Virus record (IMG/VR): IMGVR_UViG_3300042518_001152
Span: 1 to 24,673 of that record
Direction: 5' to 3' (one strand)
DNA length: 24,673 nt
Source: a virus
In this document: positions 3,902 to 21,423 of the stretch, piece by piece
Numbering within the stretch: the stretch's first letter is position 1
Layout of the letters: each line of letters opens with the position of its first letter
Notes under the pieces: generated by a model
What the model was told of the DNA's origin: nothing
The model's database searches: none
The model's input: only the letters and a program-made list of their open reading frames with translations
Position numbers and translations under genes: made by a program

Positions 3902-3906
3902 TTTCA

Positions 3907-3937: not shown

Positions 3938-3964
3938 CAAAAAACCCACAAAATTTTGTGGGTT
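3938..3964 (-). terminator. Intrinsic terminator
   Basis: A perfect inverted repeat at 3943-3964 with arms AACCCACAAAA and TTTTGTGGGTT. On the minus strand it is followed by a T run (TTTTTTGTTG), so it terminates transcripts leaving the SAK-type HAD gene. It is the only convincing intrinsic terminator I see on the minus strand, and it lies back to back with the promoter of the next operon. Confidence 0.85.
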
Positions 3965-5126: not shown

Positions 5127-5139
5127 AAAAATCTCAAAA

Positions 5140-5193
5140 TCAAAAAAGAGTCCCATCAAAGTCAAAAACGGAAATTTTTTTAATGTTTATCAT
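5140..5193 (-). pseudogene. Orphan 5' end of a HAD gene, cut at motif I by the endonuclease insertion
   Basis: An ATG at 5193 overlaps the stop of the upstream gene as ATGA and opens 17 codons, MINIKKISVFDFDGTLF, followed by TGA at 5142-5140. This is a textbook HAD start up to the catalytic DxDGT. The intact HAD gene beyond the endonuclease carries the same motif (AVFDLDGTLLDT). Over 28 bases around the motif, 5145-5172 and 4452-4479 agree at about 23 positions, so the endonuclease is flanked by a diverged direct repeat. The gapless four-base overlap shows this was the original gene start. I infer that the endonuclease inserted here and that the downstream copy has a replaced 5' end. Confidence 0.75.
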
Positions 5194-5566: not shown

Positions 5567-6058
5567 TTAATTTTTGCTCTTTGGTCTAATCATAACAAAC
5601 ATTTTTTTACCTTCAAGTTTTGGCATTGTTTCAGCTGAACCAAAATCAGTTAACTTCAATATAAGATTTAACATTAATTGCTCACCTTTGCTAACAAAAG
5701 CCATCTCACGGCCCTTAAACTGCATCGTTATTTTAACCTTATGTCCTTTTTGTAAAAATTCAGACATGTGTTTTATTCTATAATCCAAGTCATTCTCAGA
5801 AGTGTTTGGTCCAACTTTAATTTCTTTAACGTCTAGCGGTTTTGGTTTACCTTTTTTCTTTTGTTCATAAATGAATTTTTCATAATTCATTATTTTACAA
5901 ATGATTGGTGCCGCTGACGAATTAATCAAAACTAAATCCATGTTAGCATCACGTGCCATTTTTATAGCATCTGATGTTTTAACTATGCCTTTTTCTGGTA
6001 TTCTTACAGCATATTCTGTAATCTCTTCATTGATTTTGTGTTCTCTTTTGTTCTTCAT
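5567..6058 (-). CDS. infC: Translation initiation factor IF-3
   Basis: A 163-residue complete IF3. The N-terminal domain shows INEEITEYAVRIP and VLINSSAAPIICKIMNYEKFIYEQ near residues 9-65. A short basic linker (KKKGKPKPLD) follows. The C-terminal domain shows VKEIKVGPNTSENDLDYRIKH, VKITMQFKGREMAF near 110-122 and LEGKKMFVMIRPK at the end. IF3 binds the 30S subunit, prevents premature 50S joining and checks start codons; host versions discriminate against leaderless mRNAs. It is about 15-20 residues shorter than typical bacterial IF3, mainly in the first loop and the linker. A phage-borne IF3 is rare. Because this phage appears to make leaderless or near-leaderless mRNAs, a role in altering start selection is an attractive inference. 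The start codon is ATG, not the AUU typical of cellular infC. Confidence 0.95.
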   Translation of the reverse strand: MKNKREHKINEEITEYAVRIPEKGIVKTSDAIKMARDANMDLVLINSSAAPIICKIMNYEKFIYEQKKKGKPKPLDVKEIKVGPNTSENDLDYRIKHMSEFLQKGHKVKITMQFKGREMAFVSKGEQLMLNLILKLTDFGSAETMPKLEGKKMFVMIRPKSKN

Positions 6059-6339: not shown

Positions 6340-6810
6340 CTAAATTAAAGAAGTGTTTTTAATATCTTTGATGATATTTTTTATAATATCTATTGATTGT
6401 GCTTGAGTCTCGTGTATGATTGATTTAGCTTCATCCAAATCAACCCATTTATAATTATCCATTTCTGGAAACTCACCCATTTCTAATGGCACAAATGAAT
6501 TACATTTTAATACCACATCCATTAAATTTAACGACATGTTTTGTTCTTCTAAAACTAAAAAACCATGAATAGCTTTTTTTCCATGTTTATAATTTACCAT
6601 TGGTAATTCAATAAAATTACAATCTTTAGGAACAATTAAATTTGTCTCCTCATAAGTTTCACGTATGGCAGCGTCTATAATATTCTCACCAACATCTACT
6701 TTTCCTTTCGGGATACTCCAAAAATCAGGTTTATGGTTTGTAGGGTGGCAAACTAATAACTTACCATCTTTATTAACCAAAAATAAACCAGCCGCTATTG
6801 TTTTCATCAT
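6340..6810 (-). CDS. Nudix hydrolase
   Basis: 156 residues. The Nudix box GKVDVGENIIDAAIRETYEE lies near residues 36-55 and fits G-x5-E-x7-R-E-x2-E-E, with Asn in place of the usual late Gly (EETNL). N-terminal strands (AAGLFLVNKDGKLLVCHP) and PDFWSIPKGK are typical of the MutT/ADP-ribose branch. It hydrolyses nucleoside diphosphates linked to another moiety; the substrate cannot be read from sequence. The start is ATG 6810 or 6807, overlapping the stop of the CsaA-like gene. In a phage candidates include oxidised dNTPs, ADP-ribose, or RNA caps and NAD caps. It is the second Nudix domain in the window, the first being fused to the NMN adenylyltransferase. Confidence 0.9.
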   Translation of the reverse strand: MMKTIAAGLFLVNKDGKLLVCHPTNHKPDFWSIPKGKVDVGENIIDAAIRETYEETNLIVPKDCNFIELPMVNYKHGKKAIHGFLVLEEQNMSLNLMDVVLKCNSFVPLEMGEFPEMDNYKWVDLDEAKSIIHETQAQSIDIIKNIIKDIKNTSLI

Positions 6811-7151
6811 ATTAATCTAGTACCTACTCCAATGAAATCTAATCCAACTTGTAATTGACCTTCAGTCCCAATACCAACCATAATCATAGCTTGACTGTTT
6901 ACACCTTTAATAACACTTGGTTCAAGGTTGGTGATAAAAGGCATTGTAAGACCAATCAATTGTTCTGGTAAATGTGTTTTACCTATATTGGTAAAAACAG
7001 TTCGCATATCACCGTTACCAAAATCTACAGTCAATTTAAGACCATAGCTTTTTGGTACTGTTTCAGCTTCAGTTATCATACCAACCTTTATTTCCAACTT
7101 AGCTTCAATAGCCAAAAATTCATCAAACGTTATTTGTTGCTTGTTCTCCAT
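6807..7151 (-). CDS. CsaA-like tRNA-binding-domain protein
   Basis: 114 residues consisting of a single tRNA-binding OB fold (the Trbp111/CsaA/MetRS C-terminal type). Visible are LEIKVGMITEAETVPKSYGLKLTVDFG near residues 14-40, then the LIGLTMPFITNLEPSVIKGVNSQAMIMV segment near 65-92, the usual hydrophobic core and loop of the family. CsaA proteins bind tRNA and have been called secretion-linked chaperones in Bacillus. In a phage a role in tRNA protection or delivery is more likely, but this is inference. It overlaps the Nudix gene by four bases and follows the HAD phosphatase by one base, so it is in the operon led by the large phosphoesterase at 9242. Confidence 0.85.
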   Translation of the reverse strand: MENKQQITFDEFLAIEAKLEIKVGMITEAETVPKSYGLKLTVDFGNGDMRTVFTNIGKTHLPEQLIGLTMPFITNLEPSVIKGVNSQAMIMVGIGTEGQLQVGLDFIGVGTRLI

Positions 7152-9311: not shown

Positions 9312-10115
9312 TTACATTTTAATTGAAGGAATAAGTTTGTATAAGTAATCTCGCTCTTGTGTAAAAATAGGTGTGTTGTAATCTGGAATCCATTTGCTAC
9401 GTTGAACAGGGCCTCTTTCTGTTTCCAAAAAAACATCTTGTTTTTTAATCACAACACCTCTTTTATATTTTGGCAAGTAATCATTCCAATTTATCCCTTT
9501 TAGTGAAAAAAGCATTTCTTGTTTTTCTTCGCTACTCTTACCTTCTAACATTTTGTGTGAAAAATTTGCACTAGCGGCCATGCTAACGCTGTTTCTAGTA
9601 CAATCTTGTTGTCTCCAAATAAAATAATTGGAAACCTCTCTAATGTCAGGGATAACAAAAACACGTGAATCAAATACTGCTTCAATCTCAGCAAATTCAT
9701 CAGTCACTAATTTTTCAAATATTTCTTCATTATTGTATTTAAAAGTTGATAGCAACCTTAACATATTTTTATTAAAAGAAGCCGTCATTTTTGATGCAGA
9801 AATACTACATAATTTTTGAACCTTTCCATCAAAAATCATTTCAGATTCTATATTTTCAATGTCTGAAAACATCAAGCTCACTTCATCTGATTGAGTATAA
9901 GCAAACTTTGGAGATAAAAATTTACATAAATCAATAGTAGCAGCATCCATAACATTTGACAATAAATCATCAAACGGTTTGTTAAATTTTTTGGTGTATT
10001 TGCTAAAACCTTTACCGTCTAATCTTATAATAACATAAGACCTAGCAGGTATTTTAAAACTATAGCACGATTCATAACTTTTCATCCGTGACTCTAAATC
10101 AGCACCTTTTCCCAT
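9312..10115 (-). CDS. Thg1-like 3'-5' nucleotidyltransferase
   Basis: 267 residues. The metal-binding palm motifs are RLDGKGFSKYTKKF near residues 31-44 and TQSDEVSL near 74-81. The conserved DSRVFVIPD, NYFIWRQQDCTRNSVSMAA block lies near 148-180. Thg1 adds G-1 to tRNA-His; the Thg1-like proteins (TLPs) of bacteria and archaea repair truncated 5' ends of tRNAs by templated 3'-5' addition. The eukaryotic HINNLYN signature is absent at the expected place, which favours a TLP tRNA-repair role over strict His-tRNA maturation. In a phage this could restore tRNAs cut by host anticodon or acceptor nucleases (inference). It follows the PRPP synthetase stop by six bases in the same operon. Confidence 0.93.
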   Translation of the reverse strand: MGKGADLESRMKSYESCYSFKIPARSYVIIRLDGKGFSKYTKKFNKPFDDLLSNVMDAATIDLCKFLSPKFAYTQSDEVSLMFSDIENIESEMIFDGKVQKLCSISASKMTASFNKNMLRLLSTFKYNNEEIFEKLVTDEFAEIEAVFDSRVFVIPDIREVSNYFIWRQQDCTRNSVSMAASANFSHKMLEGKSSEEKQEMLFSLKGINWNDYLPKYKRGVVIKKQDVFLETERGPVQRSKWIPDYNTPIFTQERDYLYKLIPSIKM

Positions 10116-10121
10116 ATGTTT

Positions 10122-11141
10122 TTATTTTATTGATTCATAACTTAAATTATTATTTATAGCCGCCATAGCTTTAGCTATTTGATAGTCAACACTAATAGTA
10201 TTAATTAGATTGAATCCGTTTGTTATTTCATAACAATCATTAACATCATAATTCCCAATTTTAGCACAAACTTCATTTGGGTCTTTTTTAATAAGAGAAT
10301 CACTAATAATCAATTTACTTAAAACAGAACTACCTATGTTTTTGTATGCTTTACCAGACAACACCCCATGACTTATTATAGCCATAACGCTTTTAGCCCC
10401 ATTTTCCATTATAACACTGGCAGCTTTACATAAGGTACCAGCAGTATCTACCATATCATCCAAAATGATTACGTCTTTGCCTTGTACATCTCCTATTATA
10501 ACCATTTTATCAACCTCATTAGCCACTTTTCTAGTTTTATCCATCATAACATAATTTAAATCCAAACCGTGATGGGCTAGTAACTGTTCTTTCATCCTCT
10601 TAACCCTTTTGCCAGAACCAGCATCTGGTCCACACAAAACAGTATTTTCATTAGATATAGCAGATATGTAATCATCAAAAACGTTTTTACCTTCTATGTG
10701 AGCTACTGGAATATCAAAGAACCCTTGAATTTGGTCAGCATGAAGGTCAAAAGTTATAATACTAGTTGCCCCAGCATTTTCAATCATCTGAGCGATAACT
10801 TTTGCACCTATGGGGCCTCTAGCTTGGTCTTTTTTGTCTTGTCTAGCGTATGGGAAATAAGGTAATATTGCAATTATTTCCCCAGCAGCAGCACGTTTTG
10901 CCGCATCAATGGCTAAAATTAATCTTATTATTTTATCACTATTATCTGGGCTACTTAAAAGATAAACTCTTTTACCCCTAACAGATGTGTTATAATCAAC
11001 ACATAGCTCACCATCAGAAAATTTTTGAGGGTTTAAGTTACCTATTGATGTGTTTAGGTTTAACGCCTTTGATTTAGCTTTTTTTAAGATAGAGTCAATT
11101 AGGTCTAACCTATCATCCAAAGAAAAGATTATAGATTCCAT
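10122..11141 (-). CDS. prs: Ribose-phosphate pyrophosphokinase (PRPP synthetase)
   Basis: 339 residues from the ATG at 11141; codons up to 11183 overlap the upstream gene and are unlikely. Conserved blocks are QKFSDGEL, the flexible loop YFPYARQDKKDQARGPIGAK near residue 90, FDLHADQIQGFFDIPVAH near 130, and the ribose-phosphate/PRPP loop VIILDDMVDTAGTL near 225. It makes PRPP from ribose-5-phosphate and ATP. PRPP is the co-substrate of the Nampt encoded 4 kb upstream, and ribose-5-phosphate is a product of the Nudix domain of the NMNAT gene. Phage homologues of this family can instead act on ADP-ribose (Adps in the NARP1 pathway); sequence alone does not exclude that here. It shares a promoter with the small gene at 11347. 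Confidence 0.93.
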   Translation of the reverse strand: MESIIFSLDDRLDLIDSILKKAKSKALNLNTSIGNLNPQKFSDGELCVDYNTSVRGKRVYLLSSPDNSDKIIRLILAIDAAKRAAAGEIIAILPYFPYARQDKKDQARGPIGAKVIAQMIENAGATSIITFDLHADQIQGFFDIPVAHIEGKNVFDDYISAISNENTVLCGPDAGSGKRVKRMKEQLLAHHGLDLNYVMMDKTRKVANEVDKMVIIGDVQGKDVIILDDMVDTAGTLCKAASVIMENGAKSVMAIISHGVLSGKAYKNIGSSVLSKLIISDSLIKKDPNEVCAKIGNYDVNDCYEITNGFNLINTISVDYQIAKAMAAINNNLSYESIK

Positions 11142-11146
11142 TACTG

Positions 11147-11347
11147 TTATTTTTCGTTTATTGACCTTACAAAATATACCCAACCAGAATCAGAATTTTT
11201 TGTTAATATATCAGCTAGTAATTGAGCCTCATCAAAATTATCAAACTCCCATATCTCAGAATGAGTATCTACCAATAAAATTGTTTCTATTTTATCGTTT
11301 TTTTTAAAAGTTTTTACAATGGCATAAGATTTTCTATTGCTGTCCAT
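11147..11347 (-). CDS. Hypothetical protein, 66 aa
   Basis: A small protein with a beta-rich start (SYAIVKTFKKNDKIETILLVDTH) and an alpha segment containing FDNFDEAQLLADIL. The first-strand, DTHSEIW, helix, VYFVRSI order resembles small phage proteins that read like a compact alpha-beta fold, but I know no family name. It is the first gene after the promoter at 11361-11391, with a leader of about nine bases, and is followed after five bases by the PRPP synthetase, so the two are co-transcribed. Confidence 0.72.
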   Translation of the reverse strand: MDSNRKSYAIVKTFKKNDKIETILLVDTHSEIWEFDNFDEAQLLADILTKNSDSGWVYFVRSINEK

Positions 11348-11360
11348 AAAAGTATTTTTA

Positions 11361-11391
11361 CAAAGGTACTAAAAGTATTTCAAACTACCAA
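11361..11391 (-). promoter_or_regulatory. Bacteroidetes-type promoter for the prs operon
   Basis: TTG (11391-11389), 20 bases, then TACCTTTG (11368-11361). It lies in the gap after the 120-aa gene at 11423 and would transcribe the 66-aa gene, prs and the Thg1-like gene. Confidence 0.85.
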
Positions 11392-11422
11392 AATTATTTA
11401 AACTTAATTTTGTGTTTTTCAT
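11369..11422 (-). CDS. Possible 17-aa mini-ORF
   Basis: An ATG (11422-11420) directly abuts the TAA of the upstream gene and opens 17 codons ending in TAG at 11371-11369. The abutting stop and start would allow coupled translation. It overlaps the spacer and -33 element of the prs promoter, so it may be fortuitous. No function can be assigned. Confidence 0.2.
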   Translation of the reverse strand: MKNTKLSLNNFGSLKYF

Positions 11423-11785
11423 TTATTTTATTTTAATCCAATTTCTGTCATGATATTTTGCTCTATAAGTGCCAATCTCAAAACTATTGTTACTAAGAAT
11501 AATCTCTAGAGCTGTTGGCAACTCAGAATATAATTTATCCCATTCAGATTTTTGTTCATCTGTGTAAATAAAAAATTCATCATGTGTTAACAAATCAACA
11601 TTTTCTGGTTTCCCATTTAATATCAGACTAATAGCGTCATAAATGTTATATTCACCAAATGGAGGTGCTATTTCATCACCTTCATCAGCAACACCACTAA
11701 TAATACCCTGATTGTTTATGCTCCAACGTAAATTTTTCAGCAAAAGCACGTGTTCTTTTTTTAATTCAAATTTAATTACGCTCAT
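11423..11785 (-). CDS. Hypothetical protein, 120 aa
   Basis: An acidic to neutral soluble protein beginning MSVIKFELKKEHVLLLKNLRW, with a conserved-looking stretch DEGDEIAPPFGEYNIYDAISLIL and LPTALEIILSNNSFEIGTY near the end. It resembles phage proteins of a small hypothetical family but I cannot name it. There are no membrane segments. Its start overlaps the end of the SET-domain gene by four bases, so the two are coupled. Confidence 0.75.
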   Translation of the reverse strand: MSVIKFELKKEHVLLLKNLRWSINNQGIISGVADEGDEIAPPFGEYNIYDAISLILNGKPENVDLLTHDEFFIYTDEQKSEWDKLYSELPTALEIILSNNSFEIGTYRAKYHDRNWIKIK

Positions 11786-12081
11786 TTTTCTAGTTTATAT
11801 AATGTGTAATAAGCTGTTATTTCTTCACCAGCATTTATATTTCTTATTGCTTTAAGAAATAGATAATCACCATCAACAATTACTTTACAATTTGGTGTTT
11901 CAGAATGATTAAAAAAACCACCCAACGGAGTTCTTATATAACCATCTTGAAAATTAGGGTTGTATACATGCGTCATCCCTAATACGTGATTCTCGTCAAT
12001 ATCATCTGTTGCAAATAACCCAAGACCATCTATATTAGATGGTTTTATCGTTAAATAACTTGGTAGCGGTTTATAACTCAT
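11782..12081 (-). CDS. Minimal SET-domain protein (putative lysine methyltransferase)
   Basis: 99 residues. SET signatures are GLGLFATDDI near residues 20-29, FFNHSETPNC near 55-64 (the NHS..PNC pseudoknot segment that binds S-adenosylmethionine) and AIRNINAGEEITAYYTLY near 78-95, which holds the catalytic-region Tyr. These motifs are essentially complete, but the domain is very short and has no pre-SET or post-SET cysteines. SET enzymes methylate lysines in proteins. Targets in a phage could be a host chromosomal or ribosomal protein; nothing here identifies it. It lies between the lipoprotein gene, which it follows by one base, and a hypothetical gene that it overlaps by four bases. Confidence 0.85.
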   Translation of the reverse strand: MSYKPLPSYLTIKPSNIDGLGLFATDDIDENHVLGMTHVYNPNFQDGYIRTPLGGFFNHSETPNCKVIVDGDYLFLKAIRNINAGEEITAYYTLYKLEK

Positions 12082-12082
12082 A

Positions 12083-12382
12083 TTAATCTTTTTTACTATT
12101 TATCATACTAAAAAATATTCTTAGGATGAAGAATAATCCGCCAGTAAAACCAAAGTCATACCAATGTCCATTATTGTTTATTGCATAAACTTTAATTGAA
12201 TTATCAAACAAACTACCTATAAATGAAAAAGCACTTATCATACCATGCCAAGTACCACCCCAAAAACCATAAATGTGTTCCCCAGTTTGAATTGAAACTT
12301 CTGTGTTATTTGAATGAGCGCAACCTGTTAGCGCAATTATTGCAATCAAACAAATAAATAGTAAATTATTTATTTTTTTCAT
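12083..12382 (-). CDS. Small predicted lipoprotein with a C-terminal membrane segment
   Basis: 99 residues. The N-terminus is a signal peptide ending in a lipobox: KK, a hydrophobic core LLFICLIAIIALTGC, with Cys20 as the predicted lipid-attached residue. The mature part contains a Gly/Trp-rich block (HIYGFWGGTWHGMISAFSFIGSLF), NNNGHWYDFGFTGG, and a last hydrophobic stretch LFFILRIFFSMI that may enter the membrane. This mature region resembles a conserved family of small bacterial membrane proteins whose function I do not know. Being envelope-bound, it could modify the infected cell surface, for example in superinfection exclusion, but that is speculative. The start overlaps the coiled-coil gene by four bases. 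Confidence 0.8.
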   Translation of the reverse strand: MKKINNLLFICLIAIIALTGCAHSNNTEVSIQTGEHIYGFWGGTWHGMISAFSFIGSLFDNSIKVYAINNNGHWYDFGFTGGLFFILRIFFSMINSKKD

Positions 12383-12741
12383 AACGTTTTTTTTAATTTA
12401 TCAAGTTTTTTATTAAGTCTTTTTTCAACTTCTTCTTCAATTTTTCTGTTCAATAACAATTCAACTATTTTCTCAGTTATGTTATTTATTTTATCATCAA
12501 CGTGTCTAATCATCGAATTTTCAAATTGTTTTAATTTGAAATTCAAACGTTCTTCCACTTCTAATTTTCTTTTTTTACTAAAATCTTCAGAGAAATAACC
12601 TAGTTCTTCTGATATAAAACCACGCAAAATTTCTTTTACTTCGTCAGCTGTCAAAAGCACATGTGAGTCTTTATCTCTGGCGATGTTTAAAGCTTGTATT
12701 TTGTTTTCGTTTATAATACTTAATTTAGGTATGTTTACCAT
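12379..12741 (-). CDS. Coiled-coil protein, 120 aa
   Basis: The C-terminal two thirds, from about residue 55, is a long charged heptad pattern (KKRKLEVEERLNFKLKQFE, then IVELLLNRKIEEEVEKRLN) expected to form a helical oligomer. The N-terminus (VLLTADEVKEILRGFISEEL) is helical but not obviously coiled. No known domain. It overlaps the upstream HAD gene by 17 bases and the lipoprotein gene by four, so it is in the operon running from the macrodomain gene region down to 11.4 kb. Confidence 0.75.
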   Translation of the reverse strand: MVNIPKLSIINENKIQALNIARDKDSHVLLTADEVKEILRGFISEELGYFSEDFSKKRKLEVEERLNFKLKQFENSMIRHVDDKINNITEKIVELLLNRKIEEEVEKRLNKKLDKLKKTL

Positions 12742-13168
12742 ATTTTTCTTTTAAAAAAAGGTACACCAGTTTCCAATCGGTATATGGGTCAAAACCAGCT
12801 TTATCTTCAAATAAAACATTCATATAAGGTTTTTTATCATAACAACCATACCCATTAACATCGGTTTCAACTTCAGGGTTCTCATTTATATAGTCAAAAG
12901 TTATTCCTTGAGATAAAAACAAATCTATATATTCTTTTATCTCATGTGGATGTGAACATGTGTATAATATCCTTACAATGTCCTTTTGTTCACTAATTAA
13001 TTGCATAGCTTCTTTAGCGTATGGGTAAAAGTCTTTTGGTGTATTTCCATACTCGTAATTAGGTTTAAGTATGGTCCCATGAATATCAAAAAACCAAAAA
13101 GTTTTATCCCAACCACGTTTTTCCTTAGCCTCAAAATGGTTTTTTTCTATTGCCTTGATTATGCTCAT
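12725..13168 (-). CDS. HAD-like protein with an altered motif I (DxH instead of DxD)
   Basis: 147 residues. The HAD layout is clear: FFDIHGTIL near residues 27-35 (motif I), ILYTCSHPHEI near 68-78 (motif II region), KKPYMNVLFEDKAGFDP near 112-128 (Lys and late acidic residues). The nucleophile Asp is present, but the second Asp, normally the general acid/base of phosphatases, is His. The change may give a different activity, as in non-phosphatase HADs, or a binding protein. The ATG at 13168 overlaps the upstream stop by four bases. It is the third stand-alone HAD-type gene in the window, besides the orphan fragment. Confidence 0.8.
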   Translation of the reverse strand: MSIIKAIEKNHFEAKEKRGWDKTFWFFDIHGTILKPNYEYGNTPKDFYPYAKEAMQLISEQKDIVRILYTCSHPHEIKEYIDLFLSQGITFDYINENPEVETDVNGYGCYDKKPYMNVLFEDKAGFDPYTDWKLVYLFLKEKYGKHT

Positions 13169-13350
13169 TTTTTAGGAAATATTTTATCAAAATCCAATCT
13201 TTTCATCGAATAATAAGTGCTATCTTGCTTAAAGTACACAGTATCGCTAAAATAACTAATATTTTTAGGTACCCACGTTTTTAATTCTTCAACATCTATG
13301 TTTTTTTCTTTTTCATTGGCAACGCCAATTGTAACTGTTTGTTTAGACAT
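13165..13350 (-). CDS. Hypothetical protein, 61 aa
   Basis: A small, charged protein (SKQTVTIGVANEKEKNIDV, then YFSDTVYFKQDSTYYSMKRLD) with alternating beta-like segments and no membrane part. No recognised family. The start reads TTAATATG and lies 19 bases after the macrodomain stop; the stop overlaps the next gene. Coding is supported by the tight spacing on both sides. Confidence 0.62.
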   Translation of the reverse strand: MSKQTVTIGVANEKEKNIDVEELKTWVPKNISYFSDTVYFKQDSTYYSMKRLDFDKIFPKK

Positions 13351-13369
13351 ATTAATACTTTTTAAAGAA

Positions 13370-13819
13370 TTATGGTACGTAATTAACTATTGTTACATAT
13401 TCACCTCTCATTTCCTCTTCAATAATTTTTTCAATAATTGACCAGTTACCACCAGCAAGTCCAGCACCAATAAACGGTAACCCAAATCGTTTACCAGAAA
13501 ATTTTTCTTTCATAGCTTTGATACCAGAACGTAAAGCTTCATAGTCTAAATCAATTTTACCCTGTCTTCGACCTTTTGTGTCGAACTGAGAATAAATATT
13601 AACAACAATAGGTGTTGTATTTTTAGTATAAGTTATCGTTCCTAACTTATTTATATCACCAACAATAGTTTCACAATCAACTTTATAAGCTTCTGGATAT
13701 TTAGCTTTAATTTGTGGAGCTATACCAGCACCCATATTGCAAAAACAATTACAGCCATGAGCTATAACATCAAAATTATCTGCTAACTTAAGCAAATCAC
13801 CATCTACATATTTAATCAT
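13370..13819 (-). CDS. Macrodomain protein (ADP-ribose-binding or -hydrolysing)
   Basis: 149 residues forming one macrodomain. The ADP-ribose-contacting segments are YVDGDLL near residue 4, IAHGCNCFCNMGAGIAPQIK near 19-38 and LPFIGAGLAGGNW near 113-125. The shape is that of the Poa1p/ALC1-like branch, which removes phosphate from ADP-ribose-1''-phosphate or ADP-ribose from nucleic acid or glutamate. The same fold is found in DarG, which reverses ADP-ribosylation of thymidine in DNA by DarT2. It sits next to a NADAR gene and near Nampt and NMNAT-Nudix genes, which points to ADP-ribose chemistry during infection. Substrate is inferred from context, not from diagnostic residues. Confidence 0.9.
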   Translation of the reverse strand: MIKYVDGDLLKLADNFDVIAHGCNCFCNMGAGIAPQIKAKYPEAYKVDCETIVGDINKLGTITYTKNTTPIVVNIYSQFDTKGRRQGKIDLDYEALRSGIKAMKEKFSGKRFGLPFIGAGLAGGNWSIIEKIIEEEMRGEYVTIVNYVP

Positions 13820-13820
13820 C

Positions 13821-13889
13821 TTATTTAAGTTTTAAAAAATTTGTTATTTGTTTTAATTTGTCTAAAAATTCATCTTTAAACAAATGCAC
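13821..13889 (-). CDS. Possible 22-aa mini-ORF before the macrodomain gene
   Basis: A GTG at 13889-13887 follows an in-frame TAA and opens 22 codons (MHLFKDEFLDKLKQITNF followed by LKLK) ending in TAA one base before the macrodomain ATG. It fills the only gap between the NADAR and macrodomain genes. It could be a small amphipathic peptide coupled to the next gene, the end of a decayed gene, or chance. Confidence 0.25.
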   Translation of the reverse strand: MHLFKDEFLDKLKQITNFLKLK

Positions 13890-13906
13890 TTACACTTTCT
13901 TCGTAT

Positions 13907-14395
13907 CTATGAATTTGCGTCATCTTCTCTAAGTTTTTTTCTTACTTTCATAATTTCAATTCCAAGCCAGTTGGTTCCTAACCACGTTGCTTTATCCCAA
14001 GCACGTGGGTCTGTTTCGTGAAGACCAATACCCCAAATTTTATCATATGGACTAGCCTCTACAATTTCCAACTCACCAGTAGCCATTAATTCAGCTTTCA
14101 TACTTGGATTTTGACTGAATTTAGCGTAGTTTCCATCATAAACAATTTGACGACAAATAGATTCCCATTCATTTTTTTCAAATCCTTTTACTTGACGGCC
14201 AATTTGTTTTTGATAAGCTGGGTCTTTTGATTTCATGATTTCACGATAAGCATCATTATCACCAAAAAGTTTGGCTTTTCTAGCCATCATATATTGTTCA
14301 CAACAGTTGTATTCAATACCATCTATCGTAAACTTTGAGGGGTACCACTGTGAGTAAGTGCCACCCCAAAATAATATCATGTTATTCTTAACCAT
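13907..14395 (-). CDS. NADAR-family protein (YbiA-like, DUF1768)
   Basis: 162 residues. Family hallmarks are ILFWGGTYSQWYPSKF near 8-22, the glutamate helix YNCCEQYMMARKAKLF near 29-44, and the late block SPYDKIWGIGLHETD near 121-135 followed by WLGTNWLGIEIMKVR. NADAR proteins act on ADP-ribose glycosidic bonds; members have been shown to remove ADP-ribose from guanosine in DNA modified by DarT1. Key conserved Glu, Asp and Trp positions are present. The start ATG overlaps the Nampt stop as TAATG, so translation is coupled to the NAD-synthetic enzyme. Alternative roles include hydrolysing riboflavin-pathway intermediates as in cellular YbiA. Confidence 0.92.
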   Translation of the reverse strand: MVKNNMILFWGGTYSQWYPSKFTIDGIEYNCCEQYMMARKAKLFGDNDAYREIMKSKDPAYQKQIGRQVKGFEKNEWESICRQIVYDGNYAKFSQNPSMKAELMATGELEIVEASPYDKIWGIGLHETDPRAWDKATWLGTNWLGIEIMKVRKKLREDDANS

Positions 14396-16017
14396 TACGC
14401 AACCTCCAATTCTTGTTTTTTGAAAGTAGCTTGAACTCTTTCTCTTATTTCTTCAAATGTGTATTCCACAAGTATTTTACCATCTTGGAACACTGGAACC
14501 AATTCATCATGAACGCTATCAAAGTCAGCATCACGTGATGTTACAGTACGGTAAGTTCCATCTTCATTCTTAACAAGTTTCAAACGACCTTGTTTTGATT
14601 TCTTGAATGAAGGTTTCAAGTCACCATTTTCATCAACTTCTGTTGGTGATTTTACAAGGTCACGCTCAACACCATCAACAACTGCAAAACACGCTTTGGT
14701 TGCAAAGTTTTGTGTGTCACGGTTGATGTCAGCTTGTAACAACTTGCCACCCATACCAAACACGATGTTCTCAGCAGAGATACCTAGCTTGTAAAGTTCT
14801 TCATAGATTTCACCAATAGAACCGATGTTTACACCATCACCTTGGATAACACGGACTTGTGGAGGTAATACTTTGAATCCTTTTGAGTTGGTTGTGTAAC
14901 CAAACTTGTCAAACAAGATTTCAAATACAGCTTTAAGTGTATTCACAACGTGACCAGAGTCTGGGCGAATAACCAATTGATTGCCTGGTTCTGATGGGCG
15001 ACTCAAGATAAGGTCACGCAATTCAGTTCCCCAATATTGTGAACAAGCACGAAGAATATGGTAAGAGTCAGATACACAAGCAACAATACCAGTAGGATAT
15101 TTTTCAAGTGTTCTTCTCATCATTTCAACTTCACCAGCCTCACCTCTCATTGTCATGATAGAGTGTTCAGTTGCTGGTACGCTCAAACCAAATACTCGGT
15201 CAGAGTTGTAGTATTCACAGATACGTTTTGAAGCATAAGTTGTATCAGAACCCAAGAAGTTTACAAGGTGAGCAGAGCCACCGATACCAGCCGATTGTAC
15301 GGAAGACACACCACGGAAACCAAAGTCGTTCAATACAAACTCAATAACCATGTCCATGATATTTTCTGGAAGGTCTGATGTTTTTTGGAAGTATTCACGA
15401 ACGATTTTTTTAACTTCGTGAGATAAAGTAGCTACGGTAATAGGATACCAAACTTGCATCATGATAGTTTCAAGGAAGTTGGTCAACCAGTAGCAATTAG
15501 GGTCGGTGTTTTCAATAGTTACCAATACGTTCTTTACACCAACAACGGTTCCTTCTGGAACAGCTTTGATAAGAACTGGAAGACGGCCACCGTGAACGTC
15601 AATGATGTATTGGAATTTGGATTTGTCGAATACGTCTTCACGTCCGAACACACCCAATTTTGTACCTAAGTATTCGTATGCTTCATCCAACTCTTCTTGA
15701 GTGATTGCAACACCTTCGATAAATTCTTTGATGAACATTTGAATACCGTAAACTACGGTTTCACTGAATTTTCCACCACGTGACTCCATGTAAGAATAAA
15801 CCTTGGTAGTATTGTCCTCATAAAACTTGTGATGTGAATACTTGTAAGCATCACCCATAAGTACAAGGTTATACGGTTTATCCAAAGCCTTAGCAATAAG
15901 GTCTTGTAAACTTTCGATGGAAGCCCAATCACGATTCTTGATGGCTTCAGCCAAGCGGTCTTTAATCACTGATTTAAGACCTAGCTTTCTTTTTAAAAAA
16001 CGACTTGCGGATTGCAT
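14395..16017 (-). CDS. nadV: Nicotinamide phosphoribosyltransferase (Nampt/NadV)
   Basis: 540 residues. It makes NMN from nicotinamide and PRPP. The chain aligns with human NAMPT from residue 50 on: GDAYKYSHHKFYEDNTTKVYS, DFGFRGVSSVQSAGIGGSAH near 231-250 (Asp231 at the place of the Nam-selecting Asp219), VPATEHS near 280 with His285 at the place of the catalytic His247, IRPDSG near 350, VIQGDGVNIGS and FGMGGKLLQ. There is an extra helical N-terminus of about 40-45 residues. It has its own promoter. Local G+C is visibly higher (several 60-base rows at 50%) than in neighbouring small genes, which fits high expression or a different origin. KVP40 NadV is a known phage precedent. A NARP1-type Namat, which uses ADPR-pyrophosphate, is the main alternative. 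Confidence 0.95.
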   Translation of the reverse strand: MQSASRFLKRKLGLKSVIKDRLAEAIKNRDWASIESLQDLIAKALDKPYNLVLMGDAYKYSHHKFYEDNTTKVYSYMESRGGKFSETVVYGIQMFIKEFIEGVAITQEELDEAYEYLGTKLGVFGREDVFDKSKFQYIIDVHGGRLPVLIKAVPEGTVVGVKNVLVTIENTDPNCYWLTNFLETIMMQVWYPITVATLSHEVKKIVREYFQKTSDLPENIMDMVIEFVLNDFGFRGVSSVQSAGIGGSAHLVNFLGSDTTYASKRICEYYNSDRVFGLSVPATEHSIMTMRGEAGEVEMMRRTLEKYPTGIVACVSDSYHILRACSQYWGTELRDLILSRPSEPGNQLVIRPDSGHVVNTLKAVFEILFDKFGYTTNSKGFKVLPPQVRVIQGDGVNIGSIGEIYEELYKLGISAENIVFGMGGKLLQADINRDTQNFATKACFAVVDGVERDLVKSPTEVDENGDLKPSFKKSKQGRLKLVKNEDGTYRTVTSRDADFDSVHDELVPVFQDGKILVEYTFEEIRERVQATFKKQELEVA

Positions 16018-16047
16018 ATATTTATTTTTTAATTGTTGTTATTTGTG

Positions 16048-16077
16048 CAAAGGTACGAATAATATTTGAATTATCAA
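16048..16077 (-). promoter_or_regulatory. Bacteroidetes-type promoter for Nampt
   Basis: TTG (16077-16075), 19 bases, then TACCTTTG (16055-16048). The leader to the ATG at 16017 is about 26 bases. The -33 element overlaps the last codons of the orphan SLOG fragment, so this promoter originally lay at the end of that gene. Confidence 0.82.
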
Positions 16078-16160
16078 AATGTAATTATCAATATTTTTTT
16101 ACCAGCCTTATCAGCTTTTTTAATTGAGTCTTTCGTACCGCTACTATTTTGGTCTTTAAA
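16074..16160 (-). pseudogene. Orphan 3' end of a SLOG (DUF2493) gene, cut off by the HNH insertion
   Basis: The frame from TTT at 16160 to TGA at 16076-16074 encodes 28 residues, FKDQNSSGTKDSIKKAD followed by KAGKKILIITF. It aligns without gaps to the last 28 residues of the intact SLOG protein at 16775-17110 (FWDNYSKGTLDALTKAE...KKIIIVSF and stop), with 14 identities including the S-x-G-T phosphate-binding motif. A TAA at 16163-16161 closes the frame just before F, inside the end of the HNH gene. I conclude this is the original C-terminus of a SLOG gene separated by insertion of the HNH gene, and that the intact copy carries a different C-terminus. It has no start codon and is unlikely to be translated. 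Confidence 0.82.
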
Positions 16161-16716
16161 TTATCTGTTTATTTTTTAAATTAGTATGAGCTTTATCAAT
16201 CCAACTTATAAAATCATCATAATTAAAAGAATTTTTGATATAATTACATTGGCTACAACATGAAACAACATTATCTAATGTATAACCAATATCATTATCT
16301 TTCCTATCAATACCATTATAAACGTAATGACCATTAGATTTTGGTCTATTATAAATGTTTTTAGGTTCAGAACCACAATAAAAACACTCTGATTGAAATA
16401 AGTTTGTAATTTCTTCATCAGTTAAAGTAAATTCATAACCTTTACGTTTAGCATTACTTTTATAAGAACTTATTAACGAATTTTTGTTAGCCTCACCTTT
16501 AGGTTTTCTAGCTCCAGAACCATAGTCAACAGTTTCTCGATAACAACCACAACTTTTAGTGTGCCCATTTTTTATTTTGGACCCTTCAACTATTATTTCT
16601 TTACCGCAGTCACACAAACATTTATACTTTGTTCTAGAATATAAATTTCTAGGTACTGGCTCAAGAACCAAAAGTCTATTTATTTTTTTACCAGTTAAAT
16701 CATTTTTAATTACCAT
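16156..16716 (-). CDS. HNH homing endonuclease
   Basis: 186 residues from the ATG at 16716; an upstream TTG at 16740 is discounted. The N-terminus has a zinc-ribbon-like part CLCDCGKEI..GHTKSCGCYRE near residues 37-64. The HNH nuclease follows: CFYCGSEP near 115, NGIDRKDNDIGYTLDNVV near 137-154 and CCSQCNYIKNSF near 155-166, giving the two CxxC pairs and the central Asp/Asn of the motif. It is a free-standing mobile nuclease. It lies between the intact SLOG gene and the orphan SLOG 3' end at 16074-16160, so its insertion target was a SLOG gene at the conserved phosphate-binding motif. An AT-rich 16-mer lies 32 bases before the ATG. Confidence 0.92.
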   Translation of the reverse strand: MVIKNDLTGKKINRLLVLEPVPRNLYSRTKYKCLCDCGKEIIVEGSKIKNGHTKSCGCYRETVDYGSGARKPKGEANKNSLISSYKSNAKRKGYEFTLTDEEITNLFQSECFYCGSEPKNIYNRPKSNGHYVYNGIDRKDNDIGYTLDNVVSCCSQCNYIKNSFNYDDFISWIDKAHTNLKNKQII

Positions 16717-16748
16717 ATGTTTCTTTTTTTTTAGTACCAATAGTTATG

Positions 16749-16764
16749 TTTTACTTATAAATAT
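16749..16764 (-). promoter_or_regulatory. AT-rich motif before the HNH gene (possible phage promoter)
   Basis: ATATTTATAAGTAAAA on the minus strand, matching the copy at 24330-24345 at 15 of 16 positions. Here it lies 32 bases before the ATG, which would place transcription start 15-20 bases before the coding region. Confidence 0.4.
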
Positions 16765-16774
16765 AGTAAAGGCA

Positions 16775-17110
16775 CTAAAAAGAAACAATAATTATTTTTT
16801 TATTTAATTTTTCAGCTTTAGTCAACGCATCTAAAGTACCTTTTGAATAATTATCCCAAAATGCCACTACCAATTCAGCTTCGTTTATAATATCTGTATT
16901 CCTTATAAAACCAGCAGCTTTGCCATGTTTCTCCCAATCTGGAAGAAAGATTTTGGTTGGGATGTTGTTTTCTTTGGCGTATTGTTCTCCCAAAGTGTCA
17001 GCACCTTTGGCACCACCAGAAACCAATAGAGTTATATCGATTGCTGATAGAGTTCTTTTGACTTCTTCGTAGTTATCAAATGTTCTACTACCTATTACAG
17101 CTACTTTCAT
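16775..17110 (-). CDS. SLOG-superfamily protein (DUF2493, YspA-like)
   Basis: 111 residues, a Rossmannoid nucleotide-binding fold. VIGSRTFDNYEEVK lies near residues 5-18, LLVSGGAKGADTLGEQYA near 28-45 with the GGxxGxD loop, and VVAFWDNYSKGTLDAL near 81-97 with the phosphate-binding S-x-G-T. SLOG domains bind nucleotides and NAD-derived ligands; the ThsA sensor of Thoeris uses a SLOG domain to bind cyclic ADP-ribose isomers. A stand-alone SLOG protein inside an NAD/ADP-ribose gene block could be a nucleotide hydrolase or a signal-binding protein (inference). Its ATG overlaps the NMNAT-Nudix stop as ATGA. A diverged SLOG C-terminus is found beyond the HNH gene, so the 3' end of this copy may derive from the endonuclease donor. 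Confidence 0.9.
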   Translation of the reverse strand: MKVAVIGSRTFDNYEEVKRTLSAIDITLLVSGGAKGADTLGEQYAKENNIPTKIFLPDWEKHGKAAGFIRNTDIINEAELVVAFWDNYSKGTLDALTKAEKLNKKIIIVSF

Positions 17111-18048
17111 TTTATCAACTTTTGTGCTTTCATAAACTCAATCAATTTGATGAAGAGTTCACGGTGTTCCAACATGATGTCTTTTTCTGGGTTGATATCT
17201 TCTGGGCTCAACCAATCTAAAACTGCAACGTCATCTGATGGTTTTGCATTGCCCCACATGAATTTACCCAAGAACAATGTTGTCATGATACCAGATTCTG
17301 ATTTGGCATATCTCCAATCGTTGATTTTAGCACTAGCAACGTATTTCAAATCACCTATCTCGCATCCACCACTTTCTTCCATGAACTCACGTTTAGCGGC
17401 AGATTCCCAAGATTCATCAGTTCGGTCAACAAAACCACCAATAAAACGATAAAGAATTTCGTTGGGTTTTTTAGCCAAAAGGATTTGACCATTGTCATTG
17501 TAAGCAACCACATCAACAGTTGGATAGGTTACTGGGCGTTGTGTAAATGTTTGGTAAATAACACCTTTTCTAAAATCAACACTAGGGATAACTTCTCTAG
17601 CTATAGCCAATCTTTCTGAAGTTCCGTTAACTGGTGTTTTAGGCAAAACTTCAATAACCTTGTATTTGCCATGGTAGTGTGGAATAAACGAATCTCTACT
17701 ACCATAAATCACAGCAGATAACTCACCAAACGGTAATGAAATCTGTGCATCTAAATTTGCAGACCATTTGTGGTCATCACGCACATCCAATTGAGGAAGC
17801 ACGATAACGTTTGGATACGATTCATGAATCATAGCTCTTCTATTAGCAAAATCAAGAGGACTATTCTTGTCGGAAGATTTTTTAGACACCCCAAGAAAAA
17901 TTATAACTTTTTTATGATAGTGTAATACAGTATCTATAAGTTGTTTATGACCCTCGTGAAGTTGAGCTACTTGGAAACGGGCCATTATCACCCCAATTTG
18001 GGCTGTTGATGGGTCGACATCTGGTTTAATATTTAATATGTTACTCAT
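17107..18048 (-). CDS. nadM: Bifunctional NMN adenylyltransferase-Nudix (ADP-ribose) hydrolase, NadM/NatV-like
   Basis: 313 residues with two domains. The N-terminal nucleotidyltransferase has ARFQVAQLHEGH near residues 23-34 (the HxGH ATP site) and NGTSERLA near 141 (the ISGTxxR-like site); it joins NMN and ATP into NAD+. The C-terminal Nudix domain begins near 175 and has GGFVDRTDESWESAAKREF then MEESGG near 204-228, a Nudix box with a one-residue longer first loop. In Synechocystis slr0787 and phage KVP40 NatV the same fusion has NMNAT plus ADP-ribose pyrophosphatase activity. The Nudix half would turn ADP-ribose into AMP and ribose-5-phosphate. It has its own promoter with a 12-base leader and heads the unit NMNAT-SLOG. 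Confidence 0.94.
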   Translation of the reverse strand: MSNILNIKPDVDPSTAQIGVIMARFQVAQLHEGHKQLIDTVLHYHKKVIIFLGVSKKSSDKNSPLDFANRRAMIHESYPNVIVLPQLDVRDDHKWSANLDAQISLPFGELSAVIYGSRDSFIPHYHGKYKVIEVLPKTPVNGTSERLAIAREVIPSVDFRKGVIYQTFTQRPVTYPTVDVVAYNDNGQILLAKKPNEILYRFIGGFVDRTDESWESAAKREFMEESGGCEIGDLKYVASAKINDWRYAKSESGIMTTLFLGKFMWGNAKPSDDVAVLDWLSPEDINPEKDIMLEHRELFIKLIEFMKAQKLIK

Positions 18049-18064
18049 GTTTTTTATTTATACC

Positions 18065-18095
18065 CAAAGGTATTAAAAATTTTTATATTTACCAA
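18065..18095 (-). promoter_or_regulatory. Bacteroidetes-type promoter for the NMNAT-Nudix gene
   Basis: TTG (18095-18093), 20 bases, then TACCTTTG (18072-18065). It lies in the short gap after the AAA+ ATPase stop; the leader to the ATG at 18048 is about 12 bases. Confidence 0.85.
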
Positions 18096-18100
18096 ATTTT

Positions 18101-19405
18101 TTATAGTTTAAAACCTAAACCTTGTTTTTCTTTTTCAATTTGGCTAGAATAGAAGCCTTTGTAAGATTCTTTAATCAAACTAACTGTATCTTCAACACCC
18201 CAATTAACATCACCTTCTGACATTTCTCTGATGTTCTCAGCCAAGTTTGCTATAAACGCACCTGTAATATTTACCTTTTTGCCATTTATTTTTTCAGTAA
18301 GCGCATCATAAACTTCTTGAATTCTCCATTTTTCTGGCAAATGAATATTACAAACTTTAACGATTTGTTCGGCATCCAAGAAATTATAATCCAATGTAAA
18401 GTTAAATCTACCTGGTCTCTCGGCAGCTTTATCTACCAATCCTTTGTCATTGGTTGAAGCCAAAAGACTAATCTTACGTTTTTTAACGCCATCGAAGAAT
18501 GATAAAAACTGACCTAAAAGTCTAGTGTAGCTTCCATTGTCACGTGAACCCAAATACAAGTCAATATCGTCCATGATGATTACACCGCTTTCAAAAATCT
18601 CACAAGCCTCCATGATTGATGTGAGGTCATCTGTTGTATCAAAATCTGGAATGATGAATGTTACTTTAGGGATAAGCCTACGAGCAATCTCACGTATACT
18701 TTCGGTTTTACCAGTGCCTGGCTCTCCATTCAACAAATATCTTGCGTTACCACCTCTTTCAACACGAGTAACAAAATGGTCAATGAATTTCTTTTGAACA
18801 TCATTTAATATAAGCTCATTGCTAGATTGTTTGATGTCGATAATTTCAATACCTCTGAAACGACCATCTTTCATTTTTACTTTTATACACTTGCCCTTGT
18901 ATTCAGAGTTATTGAAAGACAATTCCATGATTTTCTTTTGAAACTTTTCAAAATCATTATAAGTTATTGCTTTCTTAGCAGTTATATGAAGCTGAATTTG
19001 AAGTTCATTTCTATGGTCCACAAACATCTTGGTTTGGAATAAAAAGTCATTATCGACATCTTTGAATTTTGAGTTAAACCAATAAGAACCAGTGTTCTCA
19101 AACACACCACCAAATGATAATCGCCCACTACTATCTACTTGGCCATAAGATGATACTACTACTTCATCATATTTTCCTTTAAAACAATTATGAAGATACA
19201 TATTGATGATAGCAAATTCAACAAATGTTATTTCAATGGTGTTTGATTGAGCGTTATAATCATCTTCATAATCATTTTCAATACCCACCTCTTCAATATG
19301 GTCCTCAATCGATTGTGGTATTCCTTCTTCTTGGCCGAGCCTGTTACTAATACTATTAAGAATCTTTTCAGCCCTTATGATATTTTTTGACAATTTTTTA
19401 CTCAT
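18101..19405 (-). CDS. AAA+ ATPase with a phage-specific N-terminal domain
   Basis: 434 residues. The ATPase core occupies about 195-400: Walker A GEPGTGKT at 227-234, Walker B VIIMDDID at 275-282, sensor-1 Asn in LLASTND near 319, and arginine-finger region AERPGRF near 328-334. This classical AAA pattern resembles BCS1, FtsH and proteasomal ATPases. The N-terminal 190 residues have an acidic start (EDHIEEVGIENDYEDDY) and a beta-rich part with SSYGQVDSSGRLSFGG, not a domain I can name. It probably unfolds or remodels a protein or complex. It lacks a protease domain. It follows a metallophosphoesterase by 18 bases. T4-type clamp loader or helicase loader functions are not supported by motifs. 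Confidence 0.88.
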   Translation of the reverse strand: MSKKLSKNIIRAEKILNSISNRLGQEEGIPQSIEDHIEEVGIENDYEDDYNAQSNTIEITFVEFAIINMYLHNCFKGKYDEVVVSSYGQVDSSGRLSFGGVFENTGSYWFNSKFKDVDNDFLFQTKMFVDHRNELQIQLHITAKKAITYNDFEKFQKKIMELSFNNSEYKGKCIKVKMKDGRFRGIEIIDIKQSSNELILNDVQKKFIDHFVTRVERGGNARYLLNGEPGTGKTESIREIARRLIPKVTFIIPDFDTTDDLTSIMEACEIFESGVIIMDDIDLYLGSRDNGSYTRLLGQFLSFFDGVKKRKISLLASTNDKGLVDKAAERPGRFNFTLDYNFLDAEQIVKVCNIHLPEKWRIQEVYDALTEKINGKKVNITGAFIANLAENIREMSEGDVNWGVEDTVSLIKESYKGFYSSQIEKEKQGLGFKL

Positions 19406-20626: not shown

Positions 20627-20995
20627 CTATTTTGTTAAAAAGTAAAACGTTAAGAAAAGTTGTAAATAATGCAACACTTGGTCAAACCCAAAACTAACAA
20701 AGAAATTATGGATGTCGCCTTTGGCCCATAATTTACTGTTTAGTCTACTGGTAAAATAATCGGTAATCCAATGACAAATAAATGTTATTGGTGCGAACAA
20801 AGCCAACACCAAATAATTACCAGTTATTATACTATATGCATTTGCTGTTAAAAACCATACAACACTATATGACAACACATGCATGGTAAGGGCTTTGTTA
20901 TCCTTGCTTTTGTTGATTGCTTGCCAGTGGGTTTGTAACACAAAATCAGAAAACCAGTGGATAAAAATAATTGAAAAAATTACACCTAAACTCAT
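20627..20995 (-). CDS. DUF3307-type integral membrane protein
   Basis: 122 residues with about four membrane segments: VIFSIIFIHWFSDFVLQTHW near residues 5-24, a second near 43-60, a third near 65-86 (APITFICHWITDYF), and LHYLQLFLTFYFL at the end. The pattern HWFSDFVLQTxWxAxNK and the later HWITDYFTSRLN with charged residues within the hydrophobic parts fit DUF3307, a family common in phages and bacteria with unknown function. It would sit in the inner membrane. The start overlaps the YqeY gene stop by ATGA. Confidence 0.85.
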   Translation of the reverse strand: MSLGVIFSIIFIHWFSDFVLQTHWQAINKSKDNKALTMHVLSYSVVWFLTANAYSIITGNYLVLALFAPITFICHWITDYFTSRLNSKLWAKGDIHNFFVSFGFDQVLHYLQLFLTFYFLTK

Positions 20996-21423
20996 CCTAG
21001 TTCTTCGTTTATGATTTTTGAAACAGCTTTGTTGTCAAAAGACTTTCCTTTTTGTTCTTTGTTAAACATACCCATAAGGAACCCTTGGTTTTTGTTAATG
21101 CCTTCTCTGTTTAACAATTCTTTTACAACACAACGAATTTCATCTTCACTCATAAGTGTTGGCAAATATGGTTGTAAGTATGACAATTCAGTTTCCACTT
21201 TACTAGGGTCTTGATTTATTCTCTTTTTACTTTCAATCGTTTCAATCAAACCTTTTTCTAAAGTTTTTATAACTTTTAAAACGTTTTCATCGGTAGATTC
21301 TATCATCTTACCTTCTTGTGTTTGAATCGCCCCTTTTACAACACCTAAAAAGTTTTTCTTTTCCATGTTTTTAGCTTTGTAAGCTTCCATGAAATCATTG
21401 TTTATTTTTTCTTTTAATGTCAT
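20992..21423 (-). CDS. YqeY/GatB-C-terminal-like protein
   Basis: 143 residues, close to the usual 148 of YqeY. Features are the start MTLKEKINNDFMEAYKAKN, the RINQDPSKVETELSYLQPYLP block near residues 70-92 and the C-terminal GxxKxxD-like part ending SFDNKAVSKIINEEL. The fold is the tRNA-binding tail domain of the GatB subunit of tRNA-dependent amidotransferase; stand-alone YqeY proteins have no firmly proven role but are assumed to bind tRNA or proteins. Together with IF3, CsaA-like and Thg1-like genes it adds to a translation/tRNA theme. It follows the upstream gene by one base and overlaps DUF3307. Confidence 0.88.
   Translation of the reverse strand: MTLKEKINNDFMEAYKAKNMEKKNFLGVVKGAIQTQEGKMIESTDENVLKVIKTLEKGLIETIESKKRINQDPSKVETELSYLQPYLPTLMSEDEIRCVVKELLNREGINKNQGFLMGMFNKEQKGKSFDNKAVSKIINEELG

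Follow-up and report, generated by a model that had tools for sequence, protein, structure and literature searches.

The window analysed here, a 24.7-kb (24,673-nucleotide) fragment of IMG/VR virus record IMGVR_UViG_3300042518_001152 with 31.6% GC and nearly all coding sequence on the minus strand, probably carries an expanded NARP2-type cassette for rebuilding nicotinamide adenine dinucleotide (NAD+), in a virus best read as a Bacteroidota-type jumbo phage. Bacteria commonly defend themselves against phages by depleting NAD+. NARP2, from the 2024 NARP paper of Osterman et al., is said to restore NAD+ by means of a phage nicotinamide phosphoribosyltransferase (Nampt) and a nicotinamide mononucleotide (NMN) adenylyltransferase (NMNAT). 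Genes of both kinds were found in the window, the NMNAT being recognized by sequence and fold. A first-pass annotation of the same DNA had proposed a three-gene pathway within 8 kb, made up of the ribose-phosphate diphosphokinase Prs, Nampt and an NMNAT fused to a Nudix domain. All three open reading frames (ORFs) lie where it had placed them, with family matches far above chance (Table 1), and inspection showed catalytic motifs in each. It had overlooked four further genes of this block, for a NADAR, a macrodomain and a SLOG protein and a BT0820-type HAD phosphatase, together with an HNH insertion.

The proposed scheme, in which every enzyme activity, gene expression, the substrate of the Nudix domain and a function against NAD+-depleting defences are inferred, would begin with TIR/SIR2-type defences of the host cleaving NAD+ and freeing nicotinamide. 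A canonical Nampt would combine nicotinamide with phosphoribosyl pyrophosphate (PRPP) to give NMN, and the NMNAT domain of the fusion would adenylate NMN to NAD+. The phage Prs would make PRPP from ribose-5-phosphate (R5P) and ATP, keeping it supplied in infection, and the NADAR, macrodomain and SLOG proteins of the block may handle nucleic-acid-bound or soluble ADP-ribose (ADPR) derivatives. In DNA viruses, genes of the NADAR, macro, SLOG and Nudix families are found together more often than expected by chance (PMC9503650). The predicted route from nicotinamide to NAD+ by Nampt and NMNAT, with a Prs in the same virus, is well supported by gene families, motifs and co-occurrence, as the first-pass annotation had it. 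That this route is supplied with PRPP by the phage Prs, which was repeatedly recruited, is plausible.

Motifs and phylogeny of Prs and Nampt

Homologues of Prs and Nampt are also the components of NARP1, there as an ADPR-pyrophosphate synthetase (Adps) and a nicotinamide ADP-ribose transferase (Namat). For comparison, we used the annotated Prs-like and Nampt-like proteins of six phages whose pairs fit NARP1 (FelixO1, Vetrix, PAK_P4, ICP1, SAP23, and A511). The window Prs begins at ATG, comprises 339 amino acids and has the complete class I signature of R5P/PRPP loop (DDxxDTxGT), DLHxxQIQGFF and RQD motif; its catalytic motifs DLHADQIQGFF and DDMVDTAGT (R5P loop) are both intact. At the position of the R5P loop, the Adps proteins have DDICDG (FelixO1, Vetrix, PAK_P4, and ICP1) or DDLTSYGGT (SAP23 and A511), and their [DE]PHS motif stands where the window protein has DLHADQIQGFF. 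In the Prs tree, the window sequence groups with bacterial class I Prs, and the six Adps lie beyond a branch with 100/100 support. Because an approximately unbiased (AU) test of window Prs and Adps as one clade gave a p of 0.142, the distinction rests on branch support and residues, by which the window protein is predicted to be a canonical PRPP synthase.

The window Nampt (540 amino acids) contains the catalytic motifs DFGFRG, GSDT, EHS and RPDSG, with all key residues present, so that in both Prs and Nampt we found the PRPP-site residues on which the first-pass annotation had made its proposal depend. It keeps the Nampt-type QGDGV and GGKLLQ..NRD (GGKLLQADINRD) and lacks the Namat clamp. In five of the six Namats, YGDSI is accompanied by the aromatic clamp G.GS[YF][TS]YQ..TRD, and that of A511 has a looser version, YGEGI and GAYMYSFSLSRD. 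The GS-aromatic..TRD clamp is the published determinant of selectivity for ADPR-pyrophosphate in Namat (PMC12774641). The six Namats form a separate clade (100*) in the Nampt tree, where the window Nampt stands among Bacteroidota bacterial Nampts, near those of Marinigracilibium, Chitinophagales and Cytophagales. Judged by these features, it is a canonical nicotinamide phosphoribosyltransferase.

A divergent NMNAT-Nudix fusion

The third enzyme, of 313 amino acids, joins in one chain an N-terminal NMNAT (HxGH, ISSTxxR-type) and a C-terminal Nudix domain, as in bifunctional NadM. It matches Pfam NUDIX at 5e-11 and has NadM-type matches in its N-terminal part. A search with the single sequence against solved NadM structures gave an E value of 1.5e-4, and a profile of 71 family members matched both domains of Francisella NadM (2qjt) at 1.6e-28. 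The best PDB folds for an AlphaFold2 model (pLDDT 95.2, pTM 0.88) were 2qjt, 2r5w and 2qjo, all bifunctional NMNAT/ADPR pyrophosphatases (E = 8e-18, 20-22% identity), with NudC and RppH folds ranking next. TM-scores of 0.41-0.48 and a root mean square deviation of ~12 angstroms indicate that the relative placement of the two domains in the model departs from that in the NadM entries. The protein also missed the curated NadM cut-off of PRK05379 (best 36 bits versus 449), and an assignment to classical NadM was dropped, though fold and profile back homology; we place it in a divergent subfamily.

Both catalytic centres are conserved in this subfamily. The NMNAT residues R24, H31, H34 and R146 occur in >90% of 74 members, and the metal-binding glutamates of the Nudix REUXEE motif (E221, E224, and E225) are kept in 69-71 of them (about 93-96%). 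The motif reads REFMEE in the window, in a Nudix box that carries one extra residue common to the family (G-x5-D-x8-RE-x2-EE). With catalytic residues conserved to this degree, selection seems to act on both activities.

Co-occurrence of the genes and repeated recruitment of Prs

With an alignment as query, 88 viral relatives were found for the NMNAT-Nudix fusion, of which 80 were kept, whereas the single-sequence query found one locus. The alignment query also identified 24 relatives in bacterial genomes, mainly from Bacteroidota and related phyla. Among 50 whole records, Nampt was present in 47 and Prs in 20. Of 58 distinct viral loci with sufficient flank, 54 have Nampt behind NMNAT-Nudix on the same strand and no more than 6 kb away; in 28 the two genes are direct neighbours. 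NMNAT-Nudix and Nampt are the core pair; Prs is optional overall and nearly universal in the clade of the window. The suggestion of the first-pass annotation that related phages carry all three genes was thus borne out for the pair, which Prs joined repeatedly, but not for Prs as a general companion.

Anchored on Prs, 27 distinct loci of the window's Prs family with 9 kb upstream were compared, some of them cut by contig ends. Upstream of Prs, 24 loci have Nampt (on the same strand) and 24 an HAD phosphatase; the macrodomain gene is present in 18, NADAR in 14 and SLOG in 12. The genes mostly run in the order AAA, NMNAT-Nudix, SLOG, Nampt, NADAR, macro, HAD, Prs, Thg1 and a second Nudix, and the block, including NADAR, macrodomain and SLOG, is conserved across jumbo-phage contigs.

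Prs joined the NMNAT-Nudix and Nampt pair at least three times independently, since the Prs proteins of loci L046 and L053 belong to other Prs lineages. L046, on a 247-kb IMG/VR contig, has a compact operon of NMNAT-Nudix, Nampt, Prs and a BT0820-type HAD at 9974-15551, with a Prs of a different lineage from that of the window directly behind Nampt. A few genes past this operon lies one for a putative NrtR-like, ADPR-responsive Nudix repressor. At L053, a Prs of a third lineage is encoded 2 kb downstream of the pair. At L002, L020, L022, L027, L041, L127-L130, L145, L170 and L175, Nampt, for its part, has been swapped in situ for a divergent relative (24-27% identity) that keeps the core residues and forms a 100* clade of its own; the same Prs and NMNAT-Nudix stay at these loci, usually with macro or NADAR too. 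Repeated Prs recruitment and the Nampt swap are stronger evidence than synteny.

Two further observations concern the pair. In the G044 record behind L154 (341375-343904), Nampt is encoded in two pieces, one for residues 17-176 and one for residues 157-537, with ~0.9 kb between them that may be an intron or a homing insertion. Members of the NMNAT-Nudix family were also seen in the Patescibacteria metagenome-assembled genomes L103, L109 and L110, with Nampt beside it in L103 and L110.

Nudix substrate and alternative readings

A closed loop from ADPR through R5P, PRPP and NMN to NAD+ is plausible and hinges on the substrate of the Nudix domain, for which ADPR is the likeliest candidate. The terminal ribose is contacted in Synechocystis NadM by Asp205, Arg277, Arg280 and one His (PMC5473349). 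D179 and H295 (the His of an EDH motif) of the window protein align to the Asp and His contacts, and both are conserved; the contact His was taken to be the sole His of the region, as the numbering in PMC5473349 is two off from the count here. The positions of Arg277 and Arg280 align to A248 and E251, and the invariant R246 close by could fill the Arg role.

Given such a substrate, NAD+ might be rebuilt from both of its cleavage products: the Nudix domain would convert ADPR, some of it set free from nucleic acids or signals by NADAR and the macrodomain, to AMP and R5P, from which Prs would form PRPP, Nampt NMN and NMNAT NAD+. We put this forward tentatively, as a joint proposal that is possible but falls short of being probable. 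If true, it would constitute a third NAD+ reconstitution route, one that reaches the outcome of NARP1 via canonical intermediates. A 2026 preprint describes another phage that degrades 2'/3'cADPR to ADPR, which feeds NARP1 (PMC13232231); in principle, this lends credibility to a link between ADPR clearance and NAD+ synthesis.

Several observations weigh against the cassette as we read it. ADPR diphosphatases carry an X-loop proline about 15-17 residues past the Nudix motif (PMC5389931). This marker is missing here; the NMNAT-Nudix family has a near-invariant DWRY instead, with a proline at those offsets in just 2-3 of 74 members, and KVP40 NatV keeps the proline (FDNPNRS). No Prs was found in 30 of the 50 records with NMNAT-Nudix, though many of these are fragments, nor in the complete Tunturi_5 genome, the 462-kb LR756500 or KVP40, all of which encode NMNAT-Nudix; in such phages host PRPP is evidently enough, and a phage Prs is dispensable for the pair. 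Prs could serve nucleotide synthesis instead, and synteny alone is weak functional evidence because gene order is partly inherited by related phages.

The DWRY loop, along with the NudC and RppH folds next in the fold list, would suit a Nudix domain that clears other nucleotides (NAD(H), NAD-capped RNA, ApnA, or cyclic-ADPR products) or adjusts NAD+ levels, a role suggested for phage NadM in PMC9503650, rather than one that recycles ADPR. We give this a real, if minority, chance: the top fold and profile match is to NadM with its ADPR pyrophosphatase activity, and the ribose contacts D179 and H295 are conserved, with R246 as a possible stand-in for the Arg contacts.

It is rather unlikely that Prs is unconnected to NAD+, providing PRPP for nucleotide synthesis and owing its place in the block to inherited gene order. 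Eight ORFs and a separate promoter lie between Prs and Nampt in the window, DHFR is encoded nearby, many phages with the pair have no Prs, and in LR745206, LR756502 and LR756504 Prs is located 50-400 kb from the pair, all of which would fit such a role. The independent placement of different Prs lineages beside the pair and the position of Nampt upstream of nearly all Prs loci examined argue for a link to NAD+ instead.

We consider it improbable that the ADPR stems from phage RNA repair (KptA/Tpt1, then 2H, then a Poa1-type macrodomain, then Nudix) and not from host defence. Thg1, RNase R, an RNA-repair-type HAD and a 2H phosphoesterase fragment are encoded in the window, and its macrodomain resembles Appr-1''-p phosphatase, but KptA was found in just 1 of 15 large relative records, and KptA RNA repair was rejected as the main ADPR source. 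An NAD+-dependent ligase of the phage as the reason for its need of NAD+ was likewise discarded, with a ligase in just 2 of 15 large relatives. NARP1 itself, which the first-pass annotation had kept open, we reject as highly improbable: phage-borne Prs-like and Nampt-like genes do lie a few kb apart, and a macrodomain gene can be part of NARP1 loci too (PAK_P4), but the motifs and trees described above (100/100 for Prs, 100* for Nampt) separate the window proteins from Adps and Namat, and the window encodes an NMNAT, which would be superfluous for NARP1.

Comparison with known systems

Like the window, KVP40, the prototype of NARP2 with its NadV and NatV, combines a phage Nampt with an NMNAT, and NatV is a full-length NadM-Nudix fusion. 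KVP40 differs in having no Prs, in keeping the X-loop proline and in that its NAD+ genes are ~43 kb apart, whereas the NMNAT-Nudix of the window belongs to a separate divergent subfamily and Prs, NADAR, macro and SLOG are added. With NARP1, the window shares homologous folds, the same proposed purpose of rebuilding NAD+ after depletion and, in some cases, macrodomain neighbours; it differs in its canonical substrates by motif (R5P/PRPP), in requiring an NMNAT step and in its separate clades. The bacterial NadM-Nudix proteins (Synechocystis slr0787 and Francisella NadM) agree with the window fusion in domain order, fold and catalytic residues, but not in sequence (~20% identity), the one-residue Nudix-box insertion, the DWRY X-loop and the domain arrangement of the model (TM 0.48). 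For such bacterial fusions, recycling of ADPR to AMP and R5P, and then to ATP and PRPP, has already been proposed (PMC3680494). NMNAT-Nudix and Nampt pairs of Bacteroidota and Ignavibacteria are of the same subfamily as in the window, with the genes adjacent; a window-family Prs was not seen beside these pairs, and Prs is located elsewhere in those genomes.

Iyer, Burroughs, Aravind et al. described jumbo-phage NadV and NadM-Nudix with NADAR neighbours as well as the co-occurrence of Macro, NADAR, SLOG and Nudix, with linear ADPR passed from Macro/NADAR to Nudix and AMP released, and interpreted the Nudix domain of NadM as regulating NAD+ levels (PMC7824862, PMC9503650). A term search of both papers found no mention of PRPP. 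To these published jumbo-phage NAD+-ADPr networks, the present analysis adds the link to Prs, the finding that Prs was recruited repeatedly and the exchange of Nampt for a divergent enzyme. The window extends a known phage counter-defence pathway and is not a wholly new system. If the cassette does pair NAD+ resynthesis with PRPP supply and ADPR clearance, jumbo phages would take care not just of nicotinamide but also of the donor sugar and of the toxic part of the cleaved molecule. The analysis also yields a concrete gene set for testing and a divergent family of NMNAT-Nudix proteins whose specificity loop invites exploration.

Gene layout and promoter elements

Promoter elements of the form TTG-N17-21-TAnCTTTG are enriched on the coding strand (seven strict elements versus 0.44 expected). 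Each of the three enzyme genes had been credited in the first-pass annotation with a Bacteroidetes-type promoter of its own, which is true of NMNAT-Nudix and Nampt, at distances of 16 and 30 nt, respectively, and not of Prs. Judging by the gene overlaps, there are probably two transcription units, NMNAT-Nudix with SLOG and Nampt with NADAR, each headed by such an element. The strict-element scan found no element of Prs's own; the nearest (11391-11361) precedes a 66-amino-acid ORF whose stop codon is followed after 6 nt by the Prs start, which makes Prs the likely second gene of a bicistron, a third unit. Scans of the whole window for tRNAs and Rfam families gave no matches.

Table 1. Features of the predicted cassette and its surroundings in the window
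Feature	Position	Strand	Evidence
Second, stand-alone Nudix hydrolase, 3' of the block	6340..6810	-	PF00293 6.6e-18; downstream of Prs in 20/27 loci
Prs, predicted ribose-phosphate diphosphokinase (PRPP synthase, class I type)	10122..11141	-	PRK01259 2e-93, motifs, tree
66-amino-acid ORF directly 5' of Prs, probably co-transcribed	11147..11347	-	ORF call, spacing, promoter position
Bacteroidota-type promoter element ahead of ORF 11147-11347 and Prs	11361..11391	-	Strict-element scan
HAD phosphatase, BT0820 type, between Nampt and Prs	12725..13168	-	NF046079 1.2e-04; in 24/27 Prs-anchored loci
Macrodomain protein (DarG/TARG1/Poa1-like range)	13370..13819	-	PF01661 8.7e-06
NADAR-domain protein (ADP-ribosyl hydrolase family), overlaps Nampt stop	13907..14395	-	PF08719 8e-51; nearest PDB 8bau NADAR 2.6e-19
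Nampt, predicted nicotinamide phosphoribosyltransferase (PRPP type)	14395..16017	-	PRK09198 8e-161, NAMPT_N 9e-26, motifs, tree
Bacteroidota-type promoter element, Nampt and overlapping NADAR gene	16048..16077	-	Strict-element scan
HNH endonuclease gene, outside the pathway	16156..16740	-	PHROG HNH endonuclease 1.3e-19
SLOG (YspA/YAcAr) protein, start overlapping NMNAT-Nudix stop	16775..17110	-	PF10686 1.5e-14; same place in relatives
NMNAT-Nudix fusion (NadM-type, divergent subfamily)	17107..18048	-	NCBIfam NadM/Nudix partial matches, profile, fold, conservation
Bacteroidota-type promoter element, NMNAT-Nudix and overlapping SLOG gene	18065..18095	-	TTG-N-TACCTTTG, strict

Putative ADP-ribose-handling neighbours and other genes

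The nearest PDB entries of the macrodomain protein are BT1257 (1.5e-08) and Appr-1''-p phosphatase (2.8e-08); the DarG NCBIfam model matched it at 6e-12 with 45.5 bits, under the curated cut-off of 250. The NADAR of phage T4 was active in vitro and gave no protection from DarT1 in vivo (PMC11125620). The BT0820-type HAD, a candidate additional member of the pathway, follows Nampt in most phage loci and does so directly in the bacterium Marinigracilibium (L098). The HNH gene is an insertion into the 3' end of SLOG that is absent from relatives; a second SLOG-like C-terminus, DQNSSGTKDSIKKADKAGKKILIITF*, is encoded downstream of it (16070-16155), and the SLOG ORF itself terminates in a replacement sequence. 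On the other side of NMNAT-Nudix, an AAA ATPase (18101-19405) is a constant upstream neighbour within the clade and weakly resembles the anti-phage ATPase IetA, far under the cut-off.

Further genes of the window have roles in tRNA and RNA metabolism, namely, Thg1 tRNA-His guanylyltransferase (9312-10115) and RNase R (1919-3949), next to a tRNA-binding domain protein (6807-7151), a YqeY-like protein (20992-21423) and a complete homologue of translation initiation factor IF-3 (5567-6058; PF00707 and PF05198). The 2H phosphoesterase fragment at the window end (24360-24671) has weak matches to 2'-5' RNA ligase and anti-CBASS Acb1. A small SET-domain protein (11782-12081) and a GIY-YIG/NUMOD3 homing endonuclease (4475-5143) are also encoded.

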